NCBI RefSeq assembly: GCF_004799325.1
Contig: NZ_SSMD01000003.1
Span: forward strand, 434,001 to 498,000
DNA: 64,000 bases
Reading direction: 5' to 3'
DNA from: Thalassobius vesicularis
GTDB taxonomy: Bacteria > Pseudomonadota > Alphaproteobacteria > Rhodobacterales > Rhodobacteraceae
Shown: piece after piece, positions 10,218-40,824 of the stretch
Layout: every line of letters starts with the position of its first letter
How positions within the stretch are numbered: position 1 is the first letter of the stretch
Translations under genes and position numbers: made by a program
The notes under the pieces: generated by a model
Database searches by the model: none
Seen by the model: only the letters and a program-made list of their open reading frames with translations
What the model was told of the DNA's origin: nothing

Positions 10218-10283
10218 GGGATAAACCTTTTGCATCTGCGGGTTGGCCCCCTATCTATGCCACAGACAGACGAAGGAAAACCC

Positions 10284-10730
10284 ATGAGCGCCGATAGCGA
10301 CCTGATCAAGCTCTACTCTGCCCGCATTCTGGCGCTGGCGGCCGACATCCCGCATGACGAACGCTTGGACGCCCCCGATGCCAGCGTGAAAAAACGCTCG
10401 CCGCTCTGTGGCTCGACCGTCACCGTGGATATCAAGGTCAGCGACGGCAAGATCAGCGATTTCGGGCAGGACGTGAAGGCCTGCGCGCTGGGTCAGGCCT
10501 CGGCGGCGGTGGTCGGTGCCAACGCAATCGGTTGCACCCGAGACCAGATCGCCACGGCCCGCGACCAGCTCAAGGCCCTGCTGAAAGAGGACGGCCCCAC
10601 CCCCGACGCCCCGTTTGCGGATCTCGAGGTGCTGCGTCCCGCCCGCGAATACAAGAACCGCCACGCCTCGATCATGCTGACGCTCGAGGCGACGCTCGAA
10701 GCGATGGATCAGGCCAGCAAGGCCGCATAA
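10284..10730 (+). CDS. NifU_N/IscU-like iron-sulfur cluster scaffold family protein
   Basis: This 148-residue protein resembles the N-terminal scaffold domain of NifU/IscU. Three cysteines are placed as in the family: C42 in SPLCGSTV, C67 in KACALGQAS and C84 in AIGCTRD. The conserved block GQDVKACALGQASAAVVGANAIG surrounds them. The Asp normally next to the first Cys is not obvious, so it may be a divergent member. GAAGGAAA lies just before the ATG at 10284. Its stop codon is embedded in the T-run of the minus-strand terminator at 10729-10764. No other Fe-S assembly genes are nearby. Confidence 0.85.
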   Translation: MSADSDLIKLYSARILALAADIPHDERLDAPDASVKKRSPLCGSTVTVDIKVSDGKISDFGQDVKACALGQASAAVVGANAIGCTRDQIATARDQLKALLKEDGPTPDAPFADLEVLRPAREYKNRHASIMLTLEATLEAMDQASKAA

Positions 10731-10764
10731 AAAAACCGCCGCACTTCCTGGGGGAAGGCGGCGG
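10729..10764 (-). terminator. strong terminator of the small membrane protein transcript
   Basis: On the minus strand a 12-bp GC-rich stem with one bulge (plus arms 10736-10748 and 10753-10764) is followed by seven Ts (plus 10729-10735). Confidence 0.85.
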
Positions 10765-10902
10765 CAAAGTGGCGTCTCCGATTGGGGTGGTCCGGCGTGG
10801 TCGGATCAGGCAGAAAACCGACAAGACGGGGACAGGCAGTCTGACGCAATGTTGGACATGTTTGCGTCGCAGCCGGACCGGGATCGGATCGCAGGCAGAA
10901 AC

Positions 10903-11025
10903 TCAGATAAAACTCGGCAGGTGCAGCGCCGCGACGGTCATCACGATCAGCGCGGCCACACCGATCATGTCGGCGAACAGCGTCTCTTCGGTACGGCTGA
11001 CGATTTCAGCAATCTGGCGGAACAT
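10903..11025 (-). CDS. 40-residue single-pass membrane protein with an upstream LexA-type box
   Basis: This small gene encodes MFRQIAEIVSRTEETLFADM followed by a hydrophobic stretch (about residues 18-37) that ends LHLPSFI. The form is a charged cytoplasmic N-terminus and one membrane helix. Support for coding: a GAGGAG ribosome-binding site ahead of the ATG, a strong minus-strand terminator at 10729-10764, and a perfect GAAC-N7-GAAC box at 11088-11102, which is the alphaproteobacterial LexA operator pattern. Its size, membrane helix and probable SOS control recall SidA of Caulobacter, a 29-residue SOS-induced division inhibitor, but I see no sequence identity to it. Function is unproven. Confidence 0.75.
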   Translation of the reverse strand: MFRQIAEIVSRTEETLFADMIGVAALIVMTVAALHLPSFI

Positions 11026-11087
11026 GGCGGCGGCTCCTCGTTGTCGCGTGTTGCTTATTTGTTCTCATTTCCTTAACAGGAAGTAAA

Positions 11088-11102
11088 GAACTTTTTGAGA
11101 AC
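11088..11102 (-). promoter_or_regulatory. LexA-type SOS box
   Basis: GAACTTTTTGAGAAC (minus strand GTTCTCAAAAAGTTC) matches the alphaproteobacterial LexA consensus GTTC-N7-GTTC exactly. A further GAAC at 11109-11112 and a GTTC at 11061-11064 flank it. It lies 62 bases upstream of the 40-residue membrane protein start and between it and recG. Confidence 0.75.
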
Positions 11103-11174
11103 AAATGTGAACAAACCGGTTTACTGCGCTGTCTGGCGACCGCAAGAGGCGCAGCCGCACAGGATTGGCGACCG

Positions 11175-16181
<5,007 letters not shown>

Positions 16182-39000: not shown

Positions 39001-40824
39001 TTATCCCACGACACCCTTTCCGTGTCCGACCGCAGATTGCAACGATTTCACCACCACGAAGGCGTTGCGCAGGTGGCTGCGCTCGAAATCGGACAGTTCG
39101 GCCAATTCAAGATAGTTGTCGGGGGCCTCGCCCCGTTTCACCTGCCGCGACTGGTGCAGCAGGCGGGTTTCCGCAATCAGATCATAGGCATCCAGCAAAT
39201 CCCGCGCGCCAGATGCGCTGAGCACCCCAGCCGTTGCCGCCTCTTCCAGACGGGCGCGTGTGTTGACGGCGGTCAGTTTGCCTTGCAGTGCATAAACGCG
39301 GCCCAGATCAACCACAGGCACCACGCCGTTGTGTTTCAGATCCAGCGTGTTTTTATGCTCTCCCGAGCGAATGGTCGCAAAACCGCGCAGCAAACCCAAC
39401 GGCGGCGTATGCTTCAGCGAATTGCCAATCATATGCGCCACGAAGATCGAGTTCGCATTGGCCGCTTTCAGCGTATCCTCCTGCAGATCCTCGAACAGCG
39501 ACCTGGTGCCGCCGATGGGCCGCAGGTCGAACATGACCGAGGCCAACATCTGCGCCATCGGGTCGGGCTTGCGGATCCAGCCGCTGAAATACTCTTTCCA
39601 GACGCGCACGGGTTGGCACCATTTCGGGTTGGTCGCCATCATGTCGCCGGGGCAATAGACATAGCCGCAATCGTTCAGCCCATCACAGACGAAATTCGCC
39701 AGATCGGTGAAATAGGCCATGTCGGCCTCGGTCACCGCATCGTCAAGGAACAGGCAGTTGTCCTGATCGCTGACGCCGGTCTGTTCCTGCCGCCCTTGGC
39801 TGCCGCAGGCCAGCCACAGATACGGCACCGGCGGTTTGCCCAGCTTTTCCTCGGCCAGAGCCAGCAGGCGACGGGTCGCGGTATCCGCGATGTCGGTGAT
39901 CAGCCGGGTGACAACCTCGTGCCGGTTGCCGCCGGCGACCAGTTGCACCAGCAGTTGCGGAATGCGCGCCGTCACCGCTGCCATTTGCGCGGCGGACTGA
40001 GCATGGGCAATCTCGGACACAAGCTCGGCCGAGGACACGGCCTGATACCGCGTCAAGTCGGTCTGCGTGACGATGCCAACCAGTTGCCCACCTTCGCAAA
40101 TCGGGATGTGGCCGATGCGTCGCTCCATCATCGCGTGCAGCACGTCCGAGCCGATGGCCGACGGGGACAGCGTCAGGGGATCGCGGGTCATGATCGCACT
40201 GATGGGCGTGCTGAGCGGCATCGCTTCGGCCAAGGCTTTGCCGGACAGATCACGCACGGTGACGATCCCCGCCAGGCTGTCGGCCTCGATCACACAAAGC
40301 GAGGAAATCCGGTGGTCACGCATCAGCCGCGCCGCATCCTGCACCGTGGCTTCGGGGGCGCAGGTCATCGGATTGCGCGCCATCAACGTGTCCACCCGGC
40401 TGGTCGCCAGGTCGTTCTGCTTGGGTTTCGTTGCCCGCGAACGATCAAAGAACCGCCGGGCGGGTTCATGGCTGGCCAGCAACGCCGCGAAATCGGCGGC
40501 GGGCAACAGCAGCAAGGTAGTGTCTTCAGTCGCCGTCGCGGATGTCACAGCGATCCCGTCGCGGGTCAGACCGCGTTCGCCAAAGCTGTTCCGCACACCC
40601 AGCAACGATACCGGAACATCGTTGCCATCGCGGACTTCGATCTGGCCGTGGTGGATCAGGTACAGCCCTTCCAACTGATCACCAAAGCGGTAAACGGTGT
40701 CTCCGGCAACGATCTCGCGGATCTGGAACTTCTCGGCCAAGGCCGACAACTGATCGGCGGACAGAGAGTCGTACGGATGGACCGAGGTCAGAAAACGCAG
40801 AAAATCGGGAAGGCGCGAGGGCAT
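39001..40824 (-). CDS. cNMP-binding/CBS/DUF294 nucleotidyltransferase-like protein
   Basis: This 607-residue regulatory protein contains, in order, a cyclic-nucleotide-binding domain (about residues 20-120, FGERGLTRDG), two CBS domains (about 145-265), a GlnD-like DUF294 nucleotidyltransferase domain with the catalytic pattern ACGSQGRQEQTGVSDQDN, and a helical C-terminal domain. It may sense a nucleotide and nucleotidylylate a partner. It follows the acetate-type symporter operon on the same strand, separated by a terminator at 40921-40957, and precedes the exonuclease. The ATG at 40824 has AGGAGCC upstream. Confidence 0.87.
   Translation of the reverse strand: MPSRLPDFLRFLTSVHPYDSLSADQLSALAEKFQIREIVAGDTVYRFGDQLEGLYLIHHGQIEVRDGNDVPVSLLGVRNSFGERGLTRDGIAVTSATATEDTTLLLLPAADFAALLASHEPARRFFDRSRATKPKQNDLATSRVDTLMARNPMTCAPEATVQDAARLMRDHRISSLCVIEADSLAGIVTVRDLSGKALAEAMPLSTPISAIMTRDPLTLSPSAIGSDVLHAMMERRIGHIPICEGGQLVGIVTQTDLTRYQAVSSAELVSEIAHAQSAAQMAAVTARIPQLLVQLVAGGNRHEVVTRLITDIADTATRRLLALAEEKLGKPPVPYLWLACGSQGRQEQTGVSDQDNCLFLDDAVTEADMAYFTDLANFVCDGLNDCGYVYCPGDMMATNPKWCQPVRVWKEYFSGWIRKPDPMAQMLASVMFDLRPIGGTRSLFEDLQEDTLKAANANSIFVAHMIGNSLKHTPPLGLLRGFATIRSGEHKNTLDLKHNGVVPVVDLGRVYALQGKLTAVNTRARLEEAATAGVLSASGARDLLDAYDLIAETRLLHQSRQVKRGEAPDNYLELAELSDFERSHLRNAFVVVKSLQSAVGHGKGVVG

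Follow-up and report, generated by a model that had tools for sequence, protein, structure and literature searches.

A conserved recG-adjacent locus with a LexA-type promoter, a gene for a predicted membrane peptide and a structured 3' UTR RNA

The small gene and its distribution

The window, by which the whole analysed stretch of 64,000 nucleotides from Thalassobius vesicularis is meant, carries on its minus strand a 40-amino-acid ORF (10903-11025) that begins with ATG and whose translation is MFRQIAEIVSRTEETLFADMIGVAALIVMTVAALHLPSFI. A Shine-Dalgarno sequence, GAGGAG, can be read from the sequence at 11034-11039 (minus strand), and an SD-like 4-mer stands before the ORF in 142 of 147 orthologues; an ATG start was assignable in all 147, with a start-picking script that prefers ATG. 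The upstream neighbor is recG (11175-13265, minus strand, by Pfam). On the other side lies a convergent NifU_N-like gene (10251-10730, plus strand), named from a Pfam match (E 0.0007) whose 20.2 bits fall under the curated cut-off of 22. An earlier note on this DNA had described a small minus-strand gene with a good ribosome-binding site and a 40-residue single-pass product; the ribosome-binding site is as described, the gene is confirmed by the ORF and its conservation, and the single-pass product agrees with prediction.

The peptide is predicted to cross the membrane once, at approximately residues 19-38, with its N-terminus inside, and its AlphaFold model is one helix comprising residues 2-39 (mean pLDDT 87.8). 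In the 147 orthologues used for the peptide and selection statistics (the 148 loci described below, with L124 left out), the best 19-residue hydropathy is always at least 1.6, the mean net charge over residues 1-17 is +1.2, and Lys and Arg are absent from the last 18 residues. The modeled topology would be a single inner-membrane helix with a cytoplasmic N-terminus. D19 and G22 are conserved, and L34 and P37 nearly so. Purifying selection on the ORF is apparent from pN<pS in 1764 of 1770 pairs, computed with 60 of the 123 members of 40 amino acids. Judged from this conservation, the 40-amino-acid frame is a genuine, coding gene. No relative of the window protein or of its profile was found in Pfam, NCBIfam, or the PDB; ComX gave a marginal match for one of 30 family members (E 0.14). 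An unnamed phage protein family, phrog_15880 (PHROG), matches two of 30 orthologues at E 0.003, possibly by chance, and one orthologue used as a query against 72,556 plasmid and 50,697 phage records gave no match at E 0.01.

Of 198 family genomes, a single-sequence search (E 0.001) detected the gene in 93 and a 30-sequence profile (E 0.01) in 169, nearly always as one copy each. It is kept by 168 of the 197 genera sampled in the family, mostly marine bacteria. A 64-sequence profile (E 0.05), applied to 53 genomes picked because they had been missed or weak before, matched 37 of them. Among the 29 genomes missed earlier, six (G001, G004, G023, G056, G077, and G125) appear to hold true orthologues judging by their promoters, and 16 gave no match with this profile either. 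Searches in the wider class gave matches in 8 of 289 genomes, four of which are family members; the matches in the other four are fragments of long frames. Within the genomes sampled, the gene thus appears to be confined to its family.

From 152 loci collected, the spurious L067-L070 were removed, leaving 148 distinct orthologous loci. Two of the 148 were too short for the recG check; of the other 146, 143 have a recG motif directly before the small gene, in the same orientation. In named genomes, the exact promoter core (see below) was found at at least 119 loci. The family ORF follows it in 117 of these 119, and in the other two the sequence stops 56-72 bases past the core; 111 have a recG motif ahead of it, and the remaining eight extend less than 450 bases in that direction. 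Among the 80 titles listed, the genera include Roseovarius, Sulfitobacter, Leisingera, Celeribacter, Phaeobacter, and Litoreibacter; other titles give Rhodobacteraceae, Paracoccaceae, or Rhodobacterales, and three give only Alphaproteobacteria or Pseudomonadota. No description of the locus was found in the titles and abstract openings of the literature searched, which lies mostly outside subscription journals.

Promoter architecture and its relation to LexA

Upstream of the gene, an array of GTTC half-sites, GTTC-N6-GTTC-N7-GTTC (O1; 11088-11112, minus strand), abuts a putative -35 element, TTTACT (11082-11087, minus strand; family consensus TT(T/G)ACA). The likely -10 region, TGAGAACAAA (11058-11067, minus strand), is 88-98% conserved per position. 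The earlier note had singled out a perfect GAAC-N7-GAAC 62 bases upstream of the ATG (11088-11102) and an extra half-site on each side of it; all three are present, the third GAAC at 11109-11112 with N6 spacing and the inverted GTTC at 11061-11064. It had overlooked a second LexA-like site (O2; 11050-11064, no strand assigned), which reads GAAC-N7-CAAC on the minus strand, with one mismatch, and covers the putative -10/+1 region. Transcription in the window would start about 25 bases before the ATG.

As a bare pattern the box carries no weight, and it was rejected as evidence by itself because its count in the window (2 vs. 2.05 expected) is at chance level; genome-wide, 112 copies were counted vs. 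72 for the reversed control. The second copy in the window, at 40439-40453, lies inside long open frames and fits chance. The box becomes significant because it is conserved across orthologous loci. Of 148 loci, 144 have GTTC-N7-GTTC no more than 300 nt before the ATG (the exceptions are L124, L162, L165, and L168), mostly followed directly by TT(T/G)ACA. Alignment on this box gave the promoter consensus GTTC-N5-T-GTTC-TYAWAAA-GTTC-TT(T/G)ACA-N12-AWATGAGAACAAA-N4-CAACA. Of the 144 boxed promoters, 126 have the third half-site with N6 spacing and 26 a further GTTC 10 bp higher up, so that some arrays have four GTTC in a row. In all 144, GAAC-N7-NAAC follows O1 at a distance of up to 60 nt (123 with CAAC and nine with GAAC, the latter making a perfect box), and the position profile places this site over the presumed -10/+1. 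In a later set of 30 loci, three of which were already among the 148, GTTC-N7-GTTC is found in 26 and O2 is a perfect GAAC-N7-GAAC in eight; in two of these eight, L410 and L424, O2 is perfect while the O1 array has gone. The second site of L013 holds GAACACTTAGGGAAC, identical to the recA box of L210. An upstream ORF beginning at ATGAGAACAAA was also considered and was rejected, its third codon positions being conserved as much as the others.

The earlier note had named the absence of the frame or the box from related species as the finding that would count against its reading; the frame was detected in 169 genomes and the box at 144 loci, as given above, and this objection fails. That a chance ORF happens to lie beside a chance box has a practically negligible probability. 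The window has only as many boxes as chance predicts, but the frame, the promoter, and the RNA described below are conserved over many loci, and this explanation is refuted thereby.

The window genome (G000) encodes LexA (PF01726, E 1.4e-15), and GTTC-N7-GTTC lies upstream of both its lexA and its recA, the two genes having been found by Pfam. The same motif lies upstream of genes that we take, by eye, to be uvrA, mmcB, a pdeM-like gene, an imuB-like gene, uvrD, tag, and a photolyase-like gene. Across the family, the LexA motif was found upstream of lexA in 27 of 27 loci, three of 30 having been left out as not found by the start motif, and upstream of recA in 26 of 30 loci examined. A matrix built from these 27 lexA and 26 recA sites scores at least 12 bits in 145 of 148 promoters of the small gene, vs. 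2 of 148 shuffles and none of 50 recG windows. Its median is 18.8 for O1 and 15.2 for O2, and the training sites have a median of 22.1 and a minimum of 14.6. The recA gene of the same family has GAAC-N7-GAAC at a position comparable to that of O2. The box GTTCTTGTTATGTTC at G000:C8:26003 (L388) possibly marks a further SOS gene: a 98-amino-acid frame follows at 50 nt, and an opposite-strand frame begins 143 nt from it.

The array could instead be the site of another regulator, for example an OmpR-type activator acting on helically phased direct repeats, and SOS control would then be weak or absent. The half-sites follow one another in 10/11-bp steps and abut the -35 element, as would suit such a protein, and CenR of Rhodobacter sphaeroides is described as using direct repeats upstream of -35 at the promoters that it activates (PMC9275681). 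However, the CenR motif given there, TGA-N8-TGA, differs from the GTTC array, and CenR was rejected as the regulator of the small gene because its published motif is unlike (PMC9275681). Another regulator is also favored by the flank of O1: ahead of the last GTTC, 97% of the promoters have A, and 48 of 53 lexA/recA sites have T. That O2 mostly has one mismatch is a further point against LexA. On the other hand, GTTC-N7-GTTC marks lexA and recA in this family, divergent lineages have a perfect LexA box at O2, and the N7-N6 array is itself found at lexA in four genomes. In these four of 61 genomes (G003, G013, G048, and G057; arrays L440-L443), GAAC-N7-GAAC-N6-GAAC, with exactly the O1 spacing, lies just before lexA, and the G057 site, GAACTTTTGTAGAAC, is near the window's GAACTTTTTGAGAAC and has the same A flank as O1. 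These arrays raise the already high probability of LexA control a little further and lower that of another regulator to the same extent, from unlikely to quite unlikely. Among the same 61 genomes, GTTC-N6-GTTC-N7-GTTC was rejected as a marker of other genes, nearly all the other listed matches having unlike spacers.

The distribution of LexA itself bears on this question as well, with a mixed answer. Among near-complete genomes, the orthologue, scored by the 30-sequence profile, is missing from four of the six that lack a LexA match and from 22 of the remaining 168 (Fisher p 0.005, uncorrected for kinship). In G157, which has no LexA match, the gene is present and the boxes are absent (L124). 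Retention of the array in LexA-poor genomes speaks for another regulator: G150 (100% complete, 3 contigs) has no match to the LexA DNA-binding domain and a partial C-terminal match only, yet the gene and the two sites persist there; the same is true of six genomes of lower completeness in which LexA gave no match (G158, G160, G159, G147, G028, and G196). L434 (G150) and L433 (G059) are cases in which the sole LexA-like match of a near-complete genome is a partial C-terminal half; G059 is without the small gene. None of the in silico LexA targets of Dinoroseobacter shibae in the main text of the published list lies beside recG, and "recG" occurs 0 times in that text (PMC6473078). On the balance of this sequence evidence, LexA very probably controls the promoter of the small gene. 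The LexA operator of the earlier note stands as a conserved LexA-type box (144 of 148 loci) to which LexA would bind; what does not stand is the force of the bare pattern, which is at chance level.

A structured RNA in the 3' UTR

Between the stop codon and the terminator lies a structured RNA element (10765-10898, minus strand) with a closing stem around three hairpins. Because the next gene is convergent in the window, the element belongs to a 3' UTR and is not a leader. It is followed by an intrinsic terminator (10729-10766, minus strand), a hairpin (CCGCCGCC...) and a T-run, recognized from sequence and fold. A simple terminator scanner missed it, and the fold displays the hairpin; a bulge in the stem probably hides it from the scanner. 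This agrees with the gene having its own terminator, as had been claimed.

The 3' UTR of the window folds with a z of -4.4, terminator included, and 60 orthologous UTRs without their terminators have a median z of -1.77, with 3 of 60 above zero. For the work on UTRs, 17 of the 148 were excluded as having no recognized terminator, leaving 131, and those of 140-215 nt were aligned (n=109). Of the 131 UTRs, 107 contain one or more copies of CTGTCC, vs. 287 of 2620 shuffles. This motif is predicted to be unpaired with a value of 0.70, vs. 0.52 for other C-rich 6-mers (p 7e-14). The unpaired C-rich motifs of the element in the family are CUGCC, CUGUCC, CUGCCUGUCC, and UGCCU.

MAFFT combined with RNAalifold on 16 UTRs recovered the terminator only, and larger alignments scarcely more. 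A covariance model was built on a hand-drawn structure with seven close sequences, and the later alignments lean towards it. This first model (R1), run on 100 orthologue loci, found the element in 59 of them at E <=0.01, seven of these matches being its own training rows, and nowhere else in 236 kb. All matches are on the sense strand, 1-69 nt past the stop codon. In the alignment of the 59 matches, 93.9% of cells are paired vs. 70.7% in shuffles, compensatory cells number 298 vs. 64.5, and the covariation score is 0.519 vs. 0.151; RNAalifold proposed 23 pairs, every one with double changes. The second model (R2) found the element in 51 of 78 named loci, all on the strand of the promoter, with 300 compensatory cells vs. 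70.3; these loci may share species with the 100, so that independence of the two covariation sets is incomplete. In Roseovarius nubinhibens ISM (L327), the promoter, the ORF, and the RNA all match. Both alignments are fitted to the model, which inflates the percentages; slid controls drop to 33-44% paired. At E 0.01, the RNA was below detection in 41 of the 100 and 27 of the 78 loci. The window UTR matches R2 at G000:C3:444765-444898 (E 1.6e-7), having been among the sequences of R2, and R1, built without it, matches it at E 4.5e-5. Among 36 picked genomes, all 20 that have the ORF carry the element, always beside the ORF, and none of the 16 ORF-less ones does; 15 of the 20 ORF-bearing genomes fed the model and all 20 were hand-picked, so that 20/20 is no rate. 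Rfam gave no gathering match in six loci, and nothing above 15.5 bits on the window 3' UTR, vs. cut-offs of at least 50.

The element might be a structure that stabilizes or terminates the mRNA and has no targets in trans. This simpler explanation has an appreciable probability, although it is not the favored one. It is in keeping with the terminator-like tail that 107 of 110 elements have no more than 60 nt away, and with the association with the ORF among the 36 genomes, 16 of 16 ORF-less ones lacking the element. However, the structure far exceeds what a terminator needs, and the C-rich CTGTCC is less paired than its peers, as given above. These features suggest that the 3' UTR RNA is a probable regulatory RNA. 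Autoregulation by pairing of the UTR to its own ribosome site was considered and is unsupported, the value being -22.6 kcal/mol for the own UTR vs. -23.3 for swapped UTRs.

Relation to known systems and probable function

The earlier note had proposed an SOS division inhibitor of the same kind as Caulobacter SidA, which is described as a 29-amino-acid SOS-induced single-pass inner-membrane division inhibitor with a LexA-type promoter, acting via FtsW (PMC4211646). The window product resembles SidA in being a very small, predicted single-pass inner-membrane protein behind a LexA-type promoter in an alphaproteobacterium. It is set apart by description, not by sequence: the peptide has 40 amino acids with conserved D19 and G22, and the gene is kept family-wide and is joined to a structured 3' RNA. 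The conserved gene, the predicted membrane protein, and the LexA-type operator of that proposal were borne out; the second LexA-like site and the conserved 3' RNA were missing from it, and they change the likely nature of the locus.

In Klebsiella, DinI-DinR is reported as a LexA-controlled mRNA that releases a 3' sRNA repressing ftsZ, with a pairing region of DinR that is specific to Klebsiella (PMC10907235). The present locus likewise has a LexA-type promoter and a predicted short mRNA ending in an RNA and a terminator. In contrast, its protein is a predicted membrane peptide and not DinI, and covariation shows its RNA fold to be conserved family-wide. DicB-DicF is described as one operon that encodes an sRNA together with a small protein affecting division (PMC10448788), and it shares with this locus the combination of a small protein and an RNA; unlike it, DicB-DicF is prophage-encoded, and the protein and the regulation differ.

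TisB of Escherichia coli is an SOS-regulated single-helix membrane peptide and a type I toxin. A peptide of the TisB/DinQ type that depolarizes the membrane upon SOS induction and slows growth, with a 3' UTR that merely tunes its translation or stability, is an unlikely reading of the locus. It would account for a LexA-type promoter before a 40-amino-acid product that AlphaFold models as a single helix, as in TisB and DinQ of E. coli, and DinQ is described as SOS-regulated, toxic, and single-transmembrane (PMC3567139). However, rather than being patchy, the gene is nearly always a single copy in a conserved neighborhood throughout the family, the presumed leader is merely about 25 nt long, and the query with one orthologue matched no plasmid or phage record at E 0.01. 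Moreover, no antisense RNA was seen: a weak scan of both strands of 10600-11300 gave no sigma-70-like promoter, and it missed the gene's own promoter as well. The locus resembles a mixture of SidA, DinI-DinR, TisB/DinQ, and DicB-DicF, and the comparison does not place it in any one of them.

Conservation establishes the gene, the promoter array, the RNA fold, the terminator, and the synteny. The reading preferred here, which has about an even chance of being correct, is that of a DNA-damage (SOS) transcript with two products, a membrane peptide and a probable regulatory RNA. In the undamaged cell, LexA would occupy O1, abutting the -35, and O2, over the -10/+1, and keep the promoter low. Upon damage, cleavage of LexA would induce a short mRNA of about 320 nt. 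Its 40-amino-acid product would insert as one inner-membrane helix with the N-terminus inside, and would most likely restrain some membrane process during repair, of which division is the likeliest; that the peptide is a division inhibitor is a guess. The 3' UTR RNA, with its C-rich unpaired motifs and its terminator, would probably persist or be cut out and may act as a base-pairing regulator. A bolder version is tentative and decidedly less probable: a family-wide SOS checkpoint, with a core gene beside recG, in which LexA cleavage frees from one 320-nt RNA both a divisome-blocking peptide and a C-loop sRNA that silences envelope or division mRNAs.

New here is a covariation-supported multi-hairpin 3' UTR RNA without an Rfam match. 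One LexA-type transcript combines a protein family and an RNA family, neither of which was found in the libraries searched. The DinR report notes a lack of LexA-controlled sRNAs besides DinR (PMC10907235); should the RNA of the present locus have targets in trans, it would be a further example beside DinR, with a family-wide fold. The locus offers one testable handle on how DNA damage may be coupled to division or membrane state in these bacteria.
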